This document shows, piece by piece, positions 3,466 to 10,212 of a stretch of 38,897 nucleotides of DNA. Numbering within the stretch: position 1 is the first letter of the stretch; every line of letters starts with the position of its first letter. Position numbers and translations under genes: made by a program. This DNA is from Microbacteriaceae bacterium PS02332 (GTDB taxonomy: Bacteria > Actinomycetota > Actinomycetes > Actinomycetales > Microbacteriaceae): contig JASCOJ010000011.1 in the NCBI GenBank assembly GCA_029959645.1, positions 1 through 38,897 on the forward strand, in the 5' to 3' direction. The notes under the pieces are model-generated. The model searched no databases and was not told the DNA's origin. It saw only the letters and a program-made list of their open reading frames with translations.

Positions 3466-4248
3466 TCAGCGCCGCTGGACCTCGGCGCGGAAGTACGCCT
3501 CGGCCCGTTCGCGGGCTTCGGCAGACGGGTTCTCCGGCGGGAGGTCGTCGAAGTGCCGTCCCCGGGCGAGTTCGTCGGCGACGAAGCGCTGCAGGATCGT
3601 CGGCGCGGTGCCGGTGCCGACCTCGCGGGTCCGCGCCTTCAGCTCGATGAGTTCCGTGGCGGCGTCCCGCACCGCCGCGTCGACGGATGACTCCGCCAGC
3701 AGGGTCGGCAGGTCCATCGGCGGGGTCGCGTGTCCGGGGTGGTCGTGGAGCCAGCGGAGTGCCGCGGCCGTCCGGAGAACGTAGAAGAACCGCTTGAGTG
3801 TGAGTCCGCGCTCCTGTTGCCGCTTCGCGACGTGCAGGTAGTGCCGACCGATCCGACCGCGGTCAGCGACCGCCGCCGCCAGGTCGAGGAGCCGGTCTCG
3901 GAAGCCCTCGTCACCCGAGTACACGACGGGGGAACGCAGCCACTCGGTGACGGTCGCATTGCCGTTGACCAGCAGGCGCACCGCCTTCGCGAGTTCCCAG
4001 CCGTTCACGTCGAAGACGGCGTCGAGCGGGGTCTCGACCACGTCGCGTGCCGGCCACAGCGCGAGGTGGTCCTCGACCGGGCGGACGAACAGGAAACGGC
4101 AGTCGTAGTCGCTGTCCGGCGACGGGAAGCCCCAGGCTCGGCTGCCGCTCTCGATCGCCCACGGGATCCGCACGCCGTGCTCCCGTTCGACGCCGCGGAG
4201 GCGCGCGTCGATCTCGGCGACCACCGCGGGGTCGAGGGAGTCAGGCAC
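3466..4248 (-). CDS. YcgL-type predicted nucleotidyltransferase
   Basis: The product has 260 residues and a polymerase-beta-like nucleotidyltransferase core. The helical turn GSRAWG (35-40) is followed by the metal-binding acidic pair in SDYD (Asp47, Asp49), matching the GS-x-SD-x-D pattern. The overall arrangement resembles the COG3541 (YcgL) family of predicted nucleotidyltransferases, whose substrate is unknown. I chose the GTG at 4248 because homology-like sequence begins there and the frame upstream is low-complexity shadow coding. A TACCGT box lies about 15 nt upstream. It stands alone between ftsY and ffh and converges on the 55-residue membrane gene. No partner antitoxin is seen, so a toxin-antitoxin role is not supported. 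Confidence 0.85.
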   Translation of the reverse strand: MPDSLDPAVVAEIDARLRGVEREHGVRIPWAIESGSRAWGFPSPDSDYDCRFLFVRPVEDHLALWPARDVVETPLDAVFDVNGWELAKAVRLLVNGNATVTEWLRSPVVYSGDEGFRDRLLDLAAAVADRGRIGRHYLHVAKRQQERGLTLKRFFYVLRTAAALRWLHDHPGHATPPMDLPTLLAESSVDAAVRDAATELIELKARTREVGTGTAPTILQRFVADELARGRHFDDLPPENPSAEARERAEAYFRAEVQRR

Positions 4249-4345
4249 GTTCCGCACGGACCGACGGTACCGGGTGTGGCGGGACGGTCCAGCCGACGGC
4301 CGTGCCGGTCGGTGCCGCGCCTCCGGGGTCACGGCCGGTCGGCGG

Positions 4346-4360: not shown

Positions 4361-5908
4361 ATGGCGCAATTCGGATCGCTTTCTGATCGGCTCACCGAGA
4401 CCTTCCGCAACCTGCGGAGCAAGGGGCGGCTGACCCCGTCCGACGTGGACGGCACCGTCCGCGAGATCCGCCGAGCCCTGCTCGACGCCGACGTCGCGCT
4501 CGAGGTCGTGAAGTCCTTCACCGCCTCCGTGCGCGAACGGGCGCTGTCGGACGAGGTCAACAAGGCCCTGAACCCGGCGCAGCAGGTCGTGCAGATCGTC
4601 AACGAGGAACTCGTCGGCATCCTCGGCGGCCAGCAGCGCCGCCTCGAGTTCGCGAAGCGCCCGCCGACGGTGATCATGCTCGCTGGCCTCCAGGGTGCGG
4701 GCAAGACGACCCTCGCGGGCAAGCTCGGCAAGTGGCTCAAGAAGGACGGCCACACCCCGATGCTCGTCGCGGCGGACCTCCAGCGTCCGAACGCCGTGCA
4801 GCAGCTTCAGGTCGTCGGCGAGCAGGCCGGCGTGCACGTCTTCGCCCCCGAGCCCGGCAACGGCGTCGGCGACCCGGTGAAGGTCGCCAAGAACGCGATC
4901 AAGGCCGCGGTCGACCAGCAGTACGACACCGTCATCGTGGACACCGCCGGCCGCCTCGGCGTCGACGCGGAACTGATGAAGCAGGCCGCGAACATCCGCA
5001 AGGCCGTCGACCCCGACGAGGTCCTCTTCGTCATCGACGCGATGATCGGTCAGGACGCCGTCACCACGGCCCGCGCGTTCCAGGAGGGCGTCGACTTCAC
5101 CGGGGTCGTCCTGTCGAAGCTCGACGGTGACGCCCGCGGTGGTGCCGCCCTCTCGGTCGCCTCGATCACCGGTCGCCCGATCATGTTCGCGTCCACCGGC
5201 GAGACGCTCGACGACTTCGAGCCGTTCCACCCGGACCGCATGGCGAGCCGCATCCTCGACCTCGGCGACATCCTCTCCCTCATCGAGCAGGCGCAGGGTG
5301 CCTTCGACGAGGAGGAGGCGCGCAAGGTCGCGGAGAAGATCGCGACCGACAACTTCACGCTGAACGACTTCCTGCAGCAGATGCAGCAGCTCCGCAAGGC
5401 CGGCTCGATCAAGGGCATGCTCAGCATGCTCCCGGGCGCCAAGGGCATGCGCGAGGCGCTCGACAACTTCGACGAGCGTGAGATCGTCCGGACCGAGGCG
5501 ATCATCCAGTCGATGACGCCGCAGGAGCGTGAGCTGCCGAAGCTCCTCAACGGCTCCCGCCGACTCCGCATCGCGCGGGGTTCCGGCTCGACCGTCACCG
5601 AGGTCAACGCCCTCGTGAACCGGTTCGAGCAGGCCGCGAAGATGATGAAGACCGTCGCCCGCGGTGGTGTGCCGCAGATGCCGGGCATGGGTCCGATCCC
5701 GGGCATGCACGGCGGCAAGAAGCAGCAGCCCCAGACGAAGAAGAAGAAGGTCGGCAACCCGGCGAAGCGTGCGGCGCTCGCCGCTGGTGCCCCGGCGGCC
5801 CCGCAGCAGGCGCCGAGCGGCGCGGGCCTCGGGCTCGGCATGGGCAAGGGCGGGAAGGCCCCCTCCGAGGAGGAGCTGGCCTCGCTGCAGAAGTTCCTCG
5901 GTCGCTGA
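4361..5908 (+). CDS. ffh: Signal recognition particle protein Ffh (SRP54)
   Basis: This is the protein subunit of SRP. It binds hydrophobic signal sequences on ribosomes and 4.5S/SRP RNA, and docks on FtsY. It has 515 residues: N domain, G domain with G1 GLQGAGKTT (about 109-117), DTAGR, and SKLDGDARGG, then the M domain from about residue 300. The M domain ends in a Met/Gly-rich segment (MPGMGPIPGMHGGKK) and a Lys-rich tail, followed by a low-complexity Ala/Gly C-terminus about 60 residues longer than in E. coli. The ATG at 4361 probably heads a nearly leaderless message. A perfect palindromic terminator follows 13 bp after the stop. Confidence 0.97.
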   Translation: MAQFGSLSDRLTETFRNLRSKGRLTPSDVDGTVREIRRALLDADVALEVVKSFTASVRERALSDEVNKALNPAQQVVQIVNEELVGILGGQQRRLEFAKRPPTVIMLAGLQGAGKTTLAGKLGKWLKKDGHTPMLVAADLQRPNAVQQLQVVGEQAGVHVFAPEPGNGVGDPVKVAKNAIKAAVDQQYDTVIVDTAGRLGVDAELMKQAANIRKAVDPDEVLFVIDAMIGQDAVTTARAFQEGVDFTGVVLSKLDGDARGGAALSVASITGRPIMFASTGETLDDFEPFHPDRMASRILDLGDILSLIEQAQGAFDEEEARKVAEKIATDNFTLNDFLQQMQQLRKAGSIKGMLSMLPGAKGMREALDNFDEREIVRTEAIIQSMTPQERELPKLLNGSRRLRIARGSGSTVTEVNALVNRFEQAAKMMKTVARGGVPQMPGMGPIPGMHGGKKQQPQTKKKKVGNPAKRAALAAGAPAAPQQAPSGAGLGLGMGKGGKAPSEEELASLQKFLGR

Positions 5909-5920
5909 CGCGACCGCCTG

Positions 5921-5966
5921 ACGGACGGGAGGCCCGGTACCAGCTGGTACCGGGCCTCCCGTCCGT
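5921..5966. terminator. Bidirectional palindromic terminator, family copy 3
   Basis: This is a perfect 46-bp palindrome: 21-bp arms (5921-5941 and 5946-5966) around a self-complementary AGCT. The core ACGGACGGGAGGCCCGG is identical to the copy at the right window edge. It lies between convergent ffh and the TPR membrane gene. Confidence 0.9.
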
Positions 5967-6004
5967 TCCGTGACCGCGTCGAACGCTCGACGTCCGCGCC
6001 GAGG

Positions 6005-7081
6005 TCAGCGGCGCCGCCGGTCCCTCCGGTGCAGGGTGCCGCTCAGCTCGGCGTGCGCGCGGGACTGGTAGGCGAAGGACAGGAGCAGGAAGACGAGCGC
6101 CGGTACCGTGACGACGACCTGCGCACGCCCGGGGAACGCGGCGACGAGCGCGCAGAGCACCGTGACGAGCATGAGTGCCTCCCACCGGGCCATGATCGCG
6201 ATCCCGTATCGCCGGACCGACCGGACGATCGGCCGGAGTCGGTGCGCCGTGGACCGGAAGAACCGGACCTGGGCGACGACGACGAGCGCCACCGCGAGTG
6301 CGTTGAGCCCGGACGCGACGATCGAACCGGTCCCCGGGCTGAGCACGCCGTGTTCCGGCGCCCAGCCGACGGCAGCCATCGTCCCCAGGACGGCGAACCC
6401 GAGCGGGAGCATCGACAGCGTACTGAGGTGGTCGACGGCGAGGAACAGCTGCCGGCGCTGCGCGATCGACGAGGGGTCCTCGGCGAGCAGGTCGACCAGG
6501 CGTGCGGCAGCATCCCCCGGGCGGCGGGCCGTGACTTGTGCCCGCGCGATCCCCGTCCGGGCCGCGATCGAGGTCGGGTCGATGCCGAGGGCTGTCCCGT
6601 AGGCCTCGAGCGCGTGTTGGACCTTGTTCGACGCCAGGAGCGCGTCGCCGAGGGCGACGTGCGCGCCGGGAGCGTCGGGTGCGAGGCGCACCGCGGTCTC
6701 CCCGGCGAGGACGGCCTCCCGGTACCGCTGGGTGGCGACCGCTGCGATCACCACCGTCGCGTGGACGTCCCAGTCGGTGGGAGCGAGGTGCACGGCCTCG
6801 GTCATGGCCTCCCACAGCGTCGCCCTGTCGCCCTGTCGGCCGGCGGCGAGCGCCAGGACCTGGAGGGCGCCCGCGGACTGTCCGTGCGCGAGTGCATGGC
6901 GGACGGTCGCCTCGGCGTCCTGGTCGCGGTCGAGCTGGAGGAGCGCCCGCGCGGCCAGCACGAGGACGTCGTGGTCGTCCGGCGAGCGGGTGAGCGGCCC
7001 CTGCAGCGCGCGGAGGGCGTCCTCGGGACGACCGGCATCGAGCAGCGCGTCGGCCGATGCGACGGCGGCGACGTCGGTCAT
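6005..7081 (-). CDS. TPR-repeat membrane protein (358 aa), last gene of the AAA+ unit
   Basis: The N-terminal 200 residues are tetratricopeptide-like helical repeats with an ALEAYGTALGIDP-type consensus near the end of the repeat domain. The C-terminal 140 residues hold about four hydrophobic segments and a basic tail (RRDRRRR). The repeats would be cytoplasmic scaffolding tethered to the membrane. Its ATG overlaps the AAA+ stop (ATGA), implying coupled translation. The stretch ALAVALVVVAQVRFFRST aligns with ALGLVLALVVVVRFVAGT in the 353-residue protein at 9139-10200, with the same repeat-plus-four-helix architecture, so the two are paralogues. No enzymatic motif is present and the function is unknown. 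Transcription ends at the palindrome at 5921-5966. Confidence 0.85.
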   Translation of the reverse strand: MTDVAAVASADALLDAGRPEDALRALQGPLTRSPDDHDVLVLAARALLQLDRDQDAEATVRHALAHGQSAGALQVLALAAGRQGDRATLWEAMTEAVHLAPTDWDVHATVVIAAVATQRYREAVLAGETAVRLAPDAPGAHVALGDALLASNKVQHALEAYGTALGIDPTSIAARTGIARAQVTARRPGDAAARLVDLLAEDPSSIAQRRQLFLAVDHLSTLSMLPLGFAVLGTMAAVGWAPEHGVLSPGTGSIVASGLNALAVALVVVAQVRFFRSTAHRLRPIVRSVRRYGIAIMARWEALMLVTVLCALVAAFPGRAQVVVTVPALVFLLLSFAYQSRAHAELSGTLHRRDRRRR

Positions 7082-8403
7082 CGCTTGCGCTTCTTGAGGT
7101 AGGCGCGGAGCTCTGCGTAGGTGCCGTCGTCCTCGCCGAAGGTCACCACGCTGCGGGCGGTCTCGAGCCAGGGGCCGGTCGAGGGGCGCAGTTCGCTGAT
7201 CGCGGCGGTGAGGTCGGCCATGCCGATGAGCCGGGGAGTACCCGTCGCGACGCTGTCCATCAGCGCCCGCTCGGCGGCGACCTCGCACGAGTACGCGATG
7301 TCCGCGCCGGAGAAGCCCTCGGTCCGGGCGGCGAGCGCGGCGACGTCGATCCCCTCGACCGGCCGACGGCCCAGTTCGGAGCGGAAGACGGCCTGGCGCG
7401 CCGGGGCATCCGGTGGGAGGACGAGCACCGTGCGGTCGAGGCGACCCGGGCGTCGGAGGGCGGGGTCGACGTCCCAGGGCTGGTTCGTCGCCGCGAGGAC
7501 GAACACCCCGTCGTTCCCGCCGTCCACACCGTCGAGTTCGGTGAGCAGCTGGTTGACCATGCCGCGGACGGAGGAGCTCCGCGTCTGGCTGCGCCGCTGG
7601 CCGAGGGCGTCGATCTCGTCGATGAACACGACGCAGGGTGCGGCGGCCCGGGCGGCCTCGAAGACGCCGCGGACGTTCTGTTCGCTCGCACCGAGGTACG
7701 GATCGAGGACGTCCGCGATGCCGACGCTGATGAACCGTGCGCCGAGTTCGCCCGCGACCGCGCGCGCGATGTACGTCTTGCCGCAGCCGGGCGGGCCGTA
7801 GAGGAGCAGGCCGCCGCGGAGGCTCTTGCCGTAGAGGGCGCGGAGCTCGGGGTTGGCGAGCGGTGCGAGGAACGACGCGTTGAGGCGGGCCTTGACGTGC
7901 TCCATCCCGCCCACGTCGGCGAAGGTCACGCTCGACGACTCGGGGGACCACACACTCGTCGGGTCGGTGTCCGGCGTGGCCCGGTCGTCGACGAACGCCC
8001 GCTCGGCGATGTGGTCGACCTGCTGTTCGGCGGCGTGCCAGTCGAAGTCCGGCGAGCCCTGCGGTGCCGCCGCAGGTCGGGCGGAGTCCGGGAGCGGGGC
8101 GGAGTCCGCAGCCGGTCCGGCGGACACGCTGGTCGGCACCGCGTCGGTCTCCGGCTCCGCGGGCGCACCCGTTCCCGGCCGCAGCGCCGCGAGCATGAGC
8201 GCCGCCGCCGAGGGGTCGGCCGGCGCCGACGCGAGTGCCGCGGCTGCCTCGGCGGTCGCCTCCGCGGTCCTCCCGGCGTCGAGCAGCAGCTGCCCGAGGT
8301 GTACCCGCAGCGCGACGTCGTCCGGGGCTGCCCGCACGGCGCGACGCAGCGCGTCGAGCAGCGGGTCCCGCTGCGGAGCGTCGTTCGGCGCGTCGTCGGT
8401 CAT
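7078..8403 (-). CDS. AAA+ ATPase with N-terminal TPR (CDC48/spastin-like module)
   Basis: This 441-residue protein has a TPR-like helical region (10-75), a disordered Pro/Ala-rich linker (76-150) and one AAA+ module. Motifs are complete: Walker A GPPGCGKT (203-210), an aromatic pore-loop YLG (236-238), Walker B VVFIDEID (258-265), sensor-1 Asn307 in ATNQPWD, arginine fingers in LRRPGR (317-321), and GFSGADI (363-369). The module resembles the classic remodelling clade (CDC48, spastin, FtsH) and lacks a protease domain. It should thread or remodel a protein partner, probably chosen by the TPRs. The ATG at 8403 overlaps the stop of the 127-residue TPR gene, and its own stop overlaps the next start. 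The target is unknown. Confidence 0.9.
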   Translation of the reverse strand: MTDDAPNDAPQRDPLLDALRRAVRAAPDDVALRVHLGQLLLDAGRTAEATAEAAAALASAPADPSAAALMLAALRPGTGAPAEPETDAVPTSVSAGPAADSAPLPDSARPAAAPQGSPDFDWHAAEQQVDHIAERAFVDDRATPDTDPTSVWSPESSSVTFADVGGMEHVKARLNASFLAPLANPELRALYGKSLRGGLLLYGPPGCGKTYIARAVAGELGARFISVGIADVLDPYLGASEQNVRGVFEAARAAAPCVVFIDEIDALGQRRSQTRSSSVRGMVNQLLTELDGVDGGNDGVFVLAATNQPWDVDPALRRPGRLDRTVLVLPPDAPARQAVFRSELGRRPVEGIDVAALAARTEGFSGADIAYSCEVAAERALMDSVATGTPRLIGMADLTAAISELRPSTGPWLETARSVVTFGEDDGTYAELRAYLKKRKR

Positions 8404-8783
8404 CGTGGTCCTCCGGGGTCGGGTTCGGATCCTGCGTGGGAACGGTCGGAGTGGGGCAGCGCGGCGCGCGAGGCGACGCCGAGGACGACCGCTCGGCGCC
8501 GCAGGGCACGCGGGTGCGTCGGGTCGACGGCGAGTGCGCGCTCGTCCGCGACCGCGGCGGTGTCGTACCGGCCGCTGGTAGCCAGGACGTCACCCATGGT
8601 GGTGACGACGTCTGGGGCGCCCGGTGCGGTGTCGTGGACCGCCGCGAGGTCGGCGAGCGCGAGCGCCTGCTCGAGGACGACCTCGCCGTCGGGCTGCGGC
8701 CGGGCGAGCCGCTGCAGTGCGTCGGCGGGGCGGTCGGCACCGCGCAACTCGCGGGTGGCGGTGAGCACTGCCGACGGGTTCAC
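8400..8783 (-). CDS. Small TPR-like protein (127 aa) upstream of the AAA+ ATPase
   Basis: The product is an all-helical 127-residue protein. One recognisable TPR unit is at about 60-97 (GDVLATSGRYDTAAVADERA followed by LAVDPTHPRAL), with weaker helical repeats before it and a disordered Pro/Gly-rich tail. The GTG at 8783 sits in a GTGA overlap with the stop of the 53-residue peptide gene, and its own stop overlaps the AAA+ start in the same way. It is therefore the second gene of a tightly coupled four-gene unit. It may be an adaptor for the ATPase, an inference from position and TPR content only. Confidence 0.75.
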   Translation of the reverse strand: MNPSAVLTATRELRGADRPADALQRLARPQPDGEVVLEQALALADLAAVHDTAPGAPDVVTTMGDVLATSGRYDTAAVADERALAVDPTHPRALRRRAVVLGVASRAALPHSDRSHAGSEPDPGGPR

Positions 8784-8941
8784 GGGTGCCCTCCGAACCG
8801 CGAGGTGCGGTCAGCCGACCGGACCGGGTCCGGTGCCGCAGCGCCCTGGCCCGCCGCGACGAGTCCGGTCGCGCCCGCGTGCGCCGACGCGTCGCTCACC
8901 GCGCGCCGCGTGACCGCAGGCCGCGCTTCCCCCCGCTCCAT
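8780..8941 (-). CDS. 53-residue peptide, first gene of the AAA+/TPR unit, leaderless
   Basis: A short frame from ATG 8941 encodes 53 residues beginning MERGEARPAVTRRAVSD and ending RFGGHP. It is too small to carry a recognisable domain and has no membrane segment or signal peptide; it is rich in Ala, Arg and Gly. Two things argue that it is translated. A TAGCGT -10 box ends exactly 6 nt before its ATG, the leaderless spacing seen at several other genes here. Its stop codon overlaps the GTG of the next gene by 4 nt, continuing the coupling pattern of the unit. It could be a functional peptide or mainly a leader cistron that delivers ribosomes to the downstream gene. Confidence 0.55.
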   Translation of the reverse strand: MERGEARPAVTRRAVSDASAHAGATGLVAAGQGAAAPDPVRSADRTSRFGGHP

Positions 8942-8947
8942 GCGAGA

Positions 8948-8953
8948 ACGCTA
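8948..8953 (-). promoter_or_regulatory. -10 box of the AAA+/TPR unit
   Basis: TAGCGT on the minus strand lies 6 nt before the ATG of the 53-residue peptide. Two direct repeats upstream (8982-9029) are placed where an activator or repressor could bind. Confidence 0.5.
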
Positions 8954-8981
8954 CCGCGGGCCGGTGGCTCGTACCGTCCCA

Positions 8982-9029
8982 CGACCAGGGGACGTCCGGT
9001 CCCGGAGAACGCGACCAGGGGACGGCCGG
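8982..9029. repeat. Pair of direct repeats upstream of the AAA+/TPR promoter
   Basis: CGACCAGGGGACG occurs at 8982-8994 and 9012-9024, each followed by one variable base and CCGG. The repeats are 30 bp apart, close to three helical turns, and about 41-88 bp upstream of the predicted transcription start at 8941. They could be operator half-sites; no known regulator consensus was recognised. Confidence 0.55.
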
Positions 9030-9100
9030 CAGGCTCGGTGCGGACCTGCCACGAACCTCCCGGGAGGCGGGTGGTCGCGCCGTACGCGGCGGCGGGGCGA

Positions 9101-9135
9101 ATCAGCTGGACGGGTCGCATCAGCTGGACGGGTCG
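9101..9135. repeat. 18-bp tandem duplication after the 353-aa TPR gene
   Basis: ATCAGCTGGACGGGTCG occurs at 9101-9117 and again at 9119-9135, separated by one base. It begins 3 bp past the stop codon of the minus-strand TPR gene and lies in the roughly 200-bp gap before the AAA+ unit promoter. That gap otherwise holds only the direct repeats and the promoter. Confidence 0.75.
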
Positions 9136-9138
9136 GGC

Positions 9139-10200
9139 TCAGGGGCGGGGGAAGGAGCTGATGACGGTGCGGATCTGGACCGACGCCACGACGACGCCCG
9201 TCAGTACCAGGCACTGCGCGGCGAGGTCGCCTGCCGGCGGCAGGAACAGCCCGACGACGGCGACCAGGAGCGCGGTGCCGAGCGTCACCGCCGTGGCGGT
9301 CCAGCCCGGGACGGCGCGCCGGGCGAGCCTGATGAGCCAGCCGAGTCGCCGGCCCGTCCCCGCGACGAACCGCACGACGACCACCAGGGCGAGCACGAGT
9401 CCGAGGGCCGGGGCGGTTGCGGTGAGCCATCGGTCAGTGGAGTCCCGCACCTCGTCGAGGAGGGTGACACCGCCGTACACGGCCATCACGCCGAGCACCG
9501 TCCGGATGCGCGCGAGCGGGTTCACGAGGCTCACCATGAGGTTCCGCCGCGCCAGGGCGTTGTCGGGTTCGCTCGCGAGGAGCCGGGCGAAGGCCAGGGC
9601 GGATTCGCCCTCGTGGCCGTGTCGCAGGCGGGCGACCGCGAGGTTGTGCCGTCCACCGCGGTCCTCCGGCGCGAGTCGGAGTGCGCGCCGGTACGCGGCC
9701 TGTGCGTCGCGTCGGCGGCCGGACGCGGCCAGCAGGTCGGCGTGCCGTCGGTGCACGTACGGCTCCGTGGGCGCGAGGCGGACTGCCTCCTCGCTCGCCC
9801 GGAGGGCATCCGGCCGGGCCGCGGCATCGGACCAGAGCGCCTCGACGACGGCATGGTGCGCGCGCCAGGAGTCGGGGTCGGCTGCCACCGCACGGCGGGC
9901 CGCGTCGAGCGCTCCGGGGACGTCCCCGACGCGGAGCAGCACCGACGACAGGACGCGCACCCCGGTCGCGTCGTCCGGGTCGAGTGTCACGGCGCGGCGG
10001 GCTGCGAGCAGCGCGTCCTCAGCGCGGTCGAGCGCGAGGAACGCCAGCGCCCGGACGCGCTCGGCGGCGGCCGACTCGCCGTCCGCGGTGTCGCCCGCGG
10101 CGAGTCCCGCGAGGGCGTCGCCCGGACGGCCGGCGTCGACCAGTGCTGCCGCACGCAGGACCGTGTCCTCTGGTCCTCGTCCCGCCGCATCCCCCGCCAC
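9139..10200 (-). CDS. TPR-repeat membrane protein (353 aa), paralogue of the 6005-7081 product
   Basis: About six TPR-like units occupy residues 1-220, with consensus pieces such as AYRRALRLAPEDRGGRHNLA. They are followed by four hydrophobic segments (about 230-245, 262-280, 300-322 and 328-345). The layout and the membrane-region sequence match the 358-residue protein 2 kb downstream, so this is a local gene duplication flanking the AAA+ genes. The GTG at 10200 has no ribosome binding site, but TACAGT lies 6 nt before it, so it is probably leaderless and independently transcribed. Function is unknown; a membrane-bound scaffold for the neighbouring ATPase is an inference from context. Confidence 0.85.
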   Translation of the reverse strand: MAGDAAGRGPEDTVLRAAALVDAGRPGDALAGLAAGDTADGESAAAERVRALAFLALDRAEDALLAARRAVTLDPDDATGVRVLSSVLLRVGDVPGALDAARRAVAADPDSWRAHHAVVEALWSDAAARPDALRASEEAVRLAPTEPYVHRRHADLLAASGRRRDAQAAYRRALRLAPEDRGGRHNLAVARLRHGHEGESALAFARLLASEPDNALARRNLMVSLVNPLARIRTVLGVMAVYGGVTLLDEVRDSTDRWLTATAPALGLVLALVVVVRFVAGTGRRLGWLIRLARRAVPGWTATAVTLGTALLVAVVGLFLPPAGDLAAQCLVLTGVVVASVQIRTVISSFPRP

Positions 10201-10206
10201 GGAGGA

Positions 10207-10212
10207 ACTGTA
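10207..10212 (-). promoter_or_regulatory. -10 box of the 353-aa TPR gene
   Basis: TACAGT lies 6 nt before the GTG start on the minus strand, matching the leaderless arrangement of nearby genes. Confidence 0.5.

Follow-up and report, generated by a model that had tools for sequence, protein, structure and literature searches.

A candidate two-gene module of a TPR-AAA+ ATPase and a TPR-membrane protein in a Microbacteriaceae genome and other actinobacteria

Gene content of the locus

The DNA analysed in this work is a contig of 38,897 nucleotides (JASCOJ010000011.1; hereafter the window, which is the whole 38.9-kb contig) from the 3.52 Mb draft genome of Microbacteriaceae bacterium PS02332 (assembly GCA_029959645.1), and our subject is a group of minus-strand genes within it that encode an AAA+ ATPase together with membrane proteins carrying tetratricopeptide repeats (TPRs). 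A sequence-only reading of this DNA had presented five such genes, lying between ffh and a YbdK-type gene (ybdK), as an undescribed membrane-linked AAA+/TPR system in which two TPR scaffolds hold an ATP-driven remodeller at the membrane. Our analyses have located all five open reading frames (ORFs), of 353, 53, 127, 441 and 358 amino acids (aa), between ffh and ybdK as described, and the last four of these are indeed linked by three 4-nt overlaps. The gene calls are from our own codon-usage script and their start sites are rough. The five ORFs are as follows:

6005-7081, minus strand: membrane partner of 358 aa, with a TPR array and four predicted transmembrane (TM) segments; 4-nt overlap with the AAA gene
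7078-8403, minus strand: TPR-AAA+ ATPase of 441 aa (PF00004, 143.9 bits; PF17862, 29.7 bits; TPR_19, 24.2 bits, below the cut-off)
8400-8783, minus strand: 127-aa gene, read as the relic of a third TPR-membrane partner, with the TPR part and C-terminal tail retained and the membrane region gone
8780-8941, minus strand: 53-aa frame, probably the frame-broken leader of the third partner
9139-10200, minus strand: second TPR-membrane partner of 353 aa, a paralogue of the 358-aa protein

Searches with Pfam models have identified TPR matches in four of the five proteins; the 441-aa protein also has a classical AAA domain and the accompanying lid. The TPRs assigned earlier to the ATPase and the 127-aa protein correspond to matches slightly below the Pfam cut-offs (24.2 against 25 bits and 22.8 against 23.5 bits, respectively), but a TPR_19 match (E<=0.1) is present in 53 of 57 members of the ATPase family. 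The proposed paralogy of the two TPR-membrane proteins has held up, the 353- and 358-aa proteins being 32.8% identical over 314 aa (E 5e-29) in an alignment that includes both their TPR and their membrane parts.

The two small genes look like products of decay. In the nearest relative (genome G025), a TPR protein of 265 aa that includes membrane segments is encoded where the window has the 127-aa gene. The 127-aa protein resembles the TPR part of this protein (72% over 60 aa) and its last 22 residues (68%), the intervening membrane part being missing. By this comparison, the 127-aa gene is best identified as a truncated third TPR-membrane partner. Among the other loci of this type (type I, located between ffh and ybdK and carrying one to three partners), the third partner is intact in G002, reduced to a membrane-side remnant in G032 and to a fragment in G028, and absent from G031 and G033. 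The ratio of nonsynonymous to synonymous substitution rates (dN/dS) for the 50-codon TPR part common to the 127-aa gene and its G025 counterpart is 1.01, which is a rough figure. Also relative to G025, this ratio is 0.252 for the 358-aa partner, 0.418 (dS 0.92) for the 353-aa partner and 0.032 for ffh, and the AAA gene, with a value of 0.128, is under purifying selection. The codon-usage script called no gene in the 53-aa frame, and this frame has no Pfam or NCBIfam match, is not common to G025 and does not appear to encode a conserved peptide. Hence, all five of the proposed genes are present as ORFs, but the set consists of three intact genes, one relic and one spurious or relic frame, and a five-gene operon has been dropped as the unit since neither the relic nor the 53-aa frame is conserved. 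The possession of two TPR scaffolds likewise fails as a defining trait, because the extra partners represent local amplification (one to three copies in type I loci).

Distribution and co-inheritance of the ATPase and its partner

The ATPase and the TPR-membrane protein encoded beside it in all probability constitute a functional pair. Within the genus, orthologues of the ATPase (at least 370 bits; the next match is at 176) are present in 11 of 37 genomes, with two copies both in the window's own genome and in G031, and the partner profile is matched at E<=1e-10 in 14 of 41 genomes, two of these matches being weak (G022, 45.6 bits; G030, 42.6 bits). Among the 37 genomes searched for both proteins, 11 contain both, none contains the ATPase only, one contains the partner only and 25 contain neither when G022 and G030 are set aside (Fisher test, p=1.4e-8); with these two counted in, the corresponding table is 11/0/3/23 (p=4.3e-7). 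The sole partner in G032 is truncated.

The pairing extends well beyond the genus. Scanning of named genomes yielded at least 80 loci, representing a sample of the nearest relatives and including duplicate stretches (e.g. L082/L042, L124/L217, L161/L219), and the AAA gene was called in 79 of them. The next downstream gene encodes a TPR-membrane partner in 65 of these 79 loci, and no other neighbour family is found in more than 12. Carriers of the pair include many actinobacteria (viz. Streptomyces, Actinoplanes, Nocardia, several mycobacteria and Curtobacterium, among others). Nine plasmids carry the ATPase, and the three that were inspected hold the pair with a 4-nt overlap, the partners matching the partner profile at 158-272 bits and having four predicted TM segments; the two genes are annotated in these three records only as "AAA family ATPase" or "ATP-binding protein" and "tetratricopeptide repeat protein" or "hypothetical protein". 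Actinobacterial or Curtobacterium-like copies also occur on contigs titled Candidatus Melainabacteria or Cellulosimicrobium metagenome-assembled genome (L092, L101, L083), which are possibly misbinned.

At greater distances, the ATPase was found in 25 of 198 sampled genomes of the order (E<=1e-90) and in 9 of 296 sampled genomes of the phylum (at least 320 bits), the window's own genome being counted in both. Fifteen order-level loci were examined, and in 11 of them a same-strand partner (37.5-236 bits to the partner profile) lies within two genes of the ATPase. A different arrangement, with one or two TPR proteins of about 425-440 aa that lack a predicted TM segment encoded after the ATPase, was observed in L269 (4550-7080), L276 (4356-6880) and L220 (2096-5894), the TPR match in L220, where the first gene was scanned, being below the cut-offs. 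A phylum set reached via a record titled Acidobacteria contains the ATPase in 6 of 149 genomes, the starting genome included; a TPR/TM partner is present in four of the five remaining loci examined, and none is shown in L259, a short contig. In three of these four, L260 (6400-9091), L261 (4621-7375) and L262 (4341-7096), an extra membrane protein of 155-156 aa, with no Pfam match in the two of three that were scanned, lies between the ATPase and a protein with TPRs and two TM segments.

The other neighbours are lineage-specific: Streptomyces loci have genes for HIT, metallo-beta-lactamase-fold and RNA-methyltransferase proteins, mycobacterial loci have FtsX and an ABC ATPase that is FtsE by position, and NlpC/P60 genes are likewise confined to certain lineages. 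A functional link through such neighbours was for this reason dropped, one member of each having been scanned with Pfam. In L258 (6209-9739; G572:C4), a locus of the acidobacterial type, the ATPase gene is followed directly on the same strand by genes for a TPR-membrane protein, for a protein of 221 aa that weakly matches DUF948 and for a PspA_IM30 protein (79.9 bits), in that order.

The trees of the two proteins also match. The AAA and partner trees for 66 pairs are correlated with r=0.79, a value not reached in any of 2000 label shuffles; this comparison excluded L082, L084, L112 and L135 as well as any pair in which a protein was short or interrupted. In Mycolicibacterium komossense, both proteins are nearest to those of Subtercola (the ATPase by a narrow margin over that of the window), and neither the five nearest ATPases nor the five nearest partners include one from another mycobacterium. 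This pattern points to an apparent cross-family transfer of both genes together. The occurrence of the pair in 65 of 79 loci, its profile within the genus and the matching trees all indicate that the parts co-occur and co-evolve, in agreement with the earlier claim of a real membrane-linked AAA+/TPR system. The conserved unit is best described, from gene order and sequence comparison, as the AAA gene plus one TPR-membrane partner, and it appears as a widespread and mobile two-gene module.

In addition to type I, the genus contains type II loci, which are located elsewhere and have one larger partner with 6-8 predicted TM segments (seven partners scored). The second copy in the window's own genome (G000:C317:10392-11756; L039, 4768-7760) is of type II, with an ATPase about 50% identical to that of the window and a 539-aa partner with six predicted TM segments. 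Sequences surrounding ffh were returned for 30 of the 40 genomes that have this gene: in 21 of these, ybdK lies 70-519 bases from ffh and no match to the module is present, five contain the module and four could not be judged. At three empty sites in which genes were called, the convergent ffh and ybdK genes are separated by 63, 132 and 239 bases. The gap is empty in most of the judged genomes, and we read the module as having probably inserted at a neutral spot between ffh and ybdK.

Domain architecture, relatives and possible mode of action

The ATPase consists of N-terminal TPRs, a Pro/Ala-rich linker with a DW..E box, a single classical AAA domain, an AAA_lid_3 domain and a C-terminal segment. 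The completeness of the AAA+ motifs noted earlier is confirmed by an alignment of 57 family members, in which the Walker A, Walker B and sensor 1 motifs and the arginines of the second region of homology (SRH) are invariant except for a single Walker A position that is C or T, these motifs being designated by their established roles. The pore-loop position is aromatic (W, Y or F) in 54 of the 57, and the DW..E box of the linker and a conserved C-terminal PS..W...ARN..F segment serve as signatures of the family. As claimed earlier, no protease domain is found among the listed Pfam matches of the window ATPase. These characteristics make it very likely that the protein is an active ATPase of the threading type. 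In a tree of AAA domains, 27 family members form one clade (support 0.978) located beside the Cdc48 type and apart from FtsH. Besides the family members, this tree covered FtsH-like proteins and Cdc48-like proteins with two domains, all drawn from the same genome sets and labelled by us from length and match position; domains of at least 60 bits and 150 aa were kept, and neither archaeal Vps4/CdvC nor EccA sequences were among them. The solved structures nearest in sequence (the best 60 of 270 matches) are headed by Cdc48/p97, followed by others including NVL, AFG2 and Rix7.

None of the NCBIfam matches listed for the window ATPase attains its cut-off (the comparison for the remaining 56 members used E-values only), and membership of this protein in the FtsH, Cdc48, CdvC, PAN/Mpa, EccA and IteA families was rejected since it falls far below the respective cut-offs. 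Its best NCBIfam match is to Cdc48 (TIGR01243, 203.2 bits against a cut-off of 802.65). Cdc48/p97, including the two-domain Cdc48-like ATPases of actinobacteria, has the AAA domain closest in sequence and shares the absence of a protease domain, but the module ATPase differs in having a single AAA domain, a TPR N-terminus, a linked membrane partner and no match to the Cdc48 N-domain. FtsH is a membrane-linked hexameric AAA protein with an aromatic pore loop; its model (TIGR01241, 198.8 bits against 600) matches the AAA part only, and the module ATPase lacks both the zinc protease domain and a TM segment of its own, its anchor being encoded by a separate gene. Vps4 and CdvC form a single AAA ring behind a small helical N-domain and act at membranes. 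They share with the module ATPase a classical AAA domain and lid, and one module locus contains a PspA_IM30 gene, but the CdvC model is matched at 156.1 bits against a cut-off of 650, MIT and Vps4_C are not among the best 25 of 29 Pfam families for the window ATPase, and it is TPR models that match its N-terminus. A phage origin was also considered and dropped: 15 matches in a phage collection (E<=1e-20) span 37-57% of the protein with at most 43% identity, and the four that are annotated are FtsH-type metalloproteases.

The nearest precedent is the report of VPS4-like AAA+ genes located beside a TPR plus 6TM gene in several bacterial lineages, exemplified by ACB74714.1 (Ravi et al., 2024; PMC11237479, section 18). 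In that section, as here, a classical AAA+ gene is accompanied by a TPR-multi-TM gene rather than by an ESCRT-III gene, and a membrane-proximal action is proposed (PMC11237479). The pairing was found here in the 65 of 79 loci mentioned above, with 6-8 TM segments in the seven type II partners and four in 27 of 48 others. The ATPase of the published pair is called VPS4-like and of archaeal origin, the VPS4-like AAA+ proteins having MIT and a C-terminal oligomerisation domain in the account given there (PMC11237479), whereas the N-domain of the module ATPase is made up of TPRs, with no MIT or Vps4_C among its listed matches. The published pair may include relatives of the present family. Two further papers (PMC8467076 and PMC7159879) were set aside since the parts bearing on this question describe other systems. 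In the open-licence PMC literature, judged mostly from titles and the beginnings of abstracts, no characterised member of the ATPase-partner family was found. The module is a pair of a TPR-AAA+ ATPase and a TPR-membrane protein with no assigned function; the earlier description of it as undescribed has to be qualified by the similar pair of 2024.

The 358-aa partner consists of a TPR array (residues 1 to about 210) followed by four TM segments, which form two hairpins with a basic middle loop, and by a basic tail. Four TM segments are indicated by hydrophobicity in 27 of 48 partners, with a range of 1-6 and a single TM segment in four. In the five partners with four TM segments that were printed, the loop between TM2 and TM3 contains 6-8 K/R and at most one acidic residue, the hairpin loops are poor in charge and the tail is basic. 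When the positive-inside rule for the topology of membrane proteins is applied to the loop charges, the TPRs, middle loop and tail of the partner are predicted to be cytosolic. No column in the membrane region of the 48 aligned partners is invariant or nearly so. We consider it likely that the partner acts as a membrane dock for the ATPase.

These results are consistent with a two-component, membrane-docked AAA+ remodelling machine in which the ATPase would be a cytosolic unfoldase resembling Vps4, Cdc48 or Msp1 in its action, and we assign a probability of about 0.5 to this proposal. The ATPase would form a hexamer, which would dock by TPR contacts on the membrane-bound TPR array of its partner, and ATP-driven threading would then pull on, extract or disassemble proteins at the inner membrane face; the clients would be released rather than degraded, as with Vps4, Cdc48 or Msp1. 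The specific task of extracting or disassembling membrane-proximal proteins has at best an even chance of being correct. Additional partners, where present, would alter the docking sites or the clients. If the proposal is correct, the module would be a two-gene membrane remodeller or extractase that is tractable and distinct from FtsH, offering a route into bacterial membrane-protein quality control and membrane remodelling and recalling the machines which reshape membranes in archaea and eukaryotes, and the natural series of partner copy numbers and truncations within one genus would provide ready-made comparisons.

A number of observations weigh against this proposal. The partner is missing from the next position in 14 of the 79 loci, some of which have a contig end or a more distant membrane protein there, and four of the order-level loci (L269, L273, L276 and L275, the last with a match on the other strand only) have no same-strand partner, the next gene in L269 and L276 encoding a 438-aa TPR protein with no predicted TM segment. 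The agreement of the two trees is due in part to common species history, and docking by contacts between TPRs is an assumption. Nearly all of the 25 Pfam families with the most matches among the 48 partners are TPR models, none of the 25 recurs over the membrane part, and a role other than that of an anchor (viz. transport or sensing) is therefore possible. An alternative of this kind is that the partner is a channel or sensor regulated by the ATPase, with no extraction involved. The variable number of TM segments and the lack of a known family for the membrane domain would suit such a protein, but the membrane region of the 48 partners has no invariant or nearly invariant column, and the hairpin layout and loop charges recur in the printed examples, so that we regard a channel or sensor as very improbable.

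Several other explanations for the pair have been considered. A bacterial counterpart of the ESCRT/Vps4 principle, in which the TPR-membrane protein replaces the ESCRT-III polymer and the system is widespread and spreads as a two-gene cassette, is rather unlikely; the ring would be docked on, and might remodel, arrays of its own membrane partner or of PspA at the inner membrane. PspA is placed in the ESCRT-III superfamily (PMC11746142), and the PspA_IM30 gene in L258 would suit this role, but a PspA-type gene is present in only 1 of 125 stretches and none in the window (some of the stretches being duplicates or controls, with Snf7 outside the search), and two module-bearing genomes, G356 and G589, have no PspA match at all. 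The PspA model used for this search was built from seven rows, of which one was an antisense frame included by mistake and one was the hit itself. A general link with PspA has been dropped on these grounds.

A dedicated assembly chaperone resembling EccA, CbbX or SpoVK, which would mature one membrane-bound enzyme or complex with the TPR-membrane protein delivering this client or being the client itself, is unlikely, while fitting several of the facts. EccA of the type VII secretion system (T7SS) also has TPRs ahead of its AAA domain and the EccA clade has narrow client roles, as far as the pertinent part of PMC10659427 describes them, and a single dedicated neighbour and a patchy range would suit a narrow client. 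Nevertheless, the EccA model (TIGR03922) gives 32.8 bits against a cut-off of 466.65, the AAA domain branches beside the Cdc48 type (in the tree lacking EccA sequences), and no constant third gene that could be a client is present among the 79 loci. The patchy distribution within the genus (11 of 37), the gaps beside housekeeping genes, the plasmid-borne copies and the apparent cross-family transfer could be those of a mobile conflict or defence module that would detect phage or competitor activity and act at the membrane, and cross-matches to the IetA/IteA ATPases point the same way. This explanation appears distinctly improbable, since the IteA model is matched at 119.9 bits against a cut-off of 510, the PADLOC matches of the partners are to a generic TPR model (4 of 48) apart from three single-member matches, those of the window proteins are cross-matches to the AAA domain only, no effector domain is found among the Pfam matches of the window proteins, and the AAA gene is constrained (dN/dS 0.128). 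The IetAS system shares the classical AAA domain and includes a subtilisin-like protease as partner gene, whereas the conserved neighbour of the module ATPase is the TPR-membrane protein; no neighbour of the subtilisin type was recognised by eye in the recurrent neighbour clusters, most neighbours being unscanned. An adaptor role in proteolysis, in which FtsH or the Pup proteasome would degrade membrane proteins unfolded by the ring, would agree with the unfoldase-type AAA domain and aromatic pore loop, but we consider it scarcely probable, as no protease domain is listed, NlpC/P60 is the sole peptidase group seen (9 of 79 loci; cell-wall-like, with families named mostly by eye and one member by Pfam), and the C-terminus is occupied by the conserved PS..W...ARN segment, beyond which no protease-docking tail was looked for.

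Regulatory features and neighbouring elements

The remaining features in and around the module are the following:

5907-5980, no strand assigned: terminator-like inverted repeat between the convergent module and ffh, with 37-nt arms that are 84% complementary
8948-8953, minus strand: -10-like hexamer TAGCGT, 6 nt ahead of the ATG at 8941; likely leaderless promoter of the relic-AAA-partner unit, in a block kept in G025
10207-10212, minus strand: -10-like hexamer TACAGT, 6 nt ahead of the GTG start of the 353-aa partner; likely leaderless promoter

The TACAGT hexamer is found upstream in all six type I loci with an intact upstream partner, at 6 nt from the start in five and at 8 nt in G025. We infer that both hexamers would serve leaderless starts, and the 353-aa partner is probably a separate upstream transcription unit.

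On the other side of ffh, the window contains a gene of the RlaP family (3466-4257; PF10127, 209.6 bits), which is located beside ffh in 5 of 30 genus loci including its own, a count limited by the flanks available, and which marks a second variable spot at ffh. Solitary TPR-membrane paralogues with no adjoining ATPase were observed in L212 (4563-5663; G010) and L213 (5731-6822; G021) at the same site, beside a PTS HPr gene, identified by Pfam next to the G010 copy, whose profile match reads through one TGA. Two tandem 18-bp repeats that are 89% alike lie directly downstream of the 353-aa gene (window 9093-9128), and two 18-bp direct repeats CGACCAGGGGACGTCCGG, 30 bp apart, are present upstream of the start of the relic-AAA-partner unit (window 8982-9029), in a block that partly recurs in G025 and is a possible regulator site.

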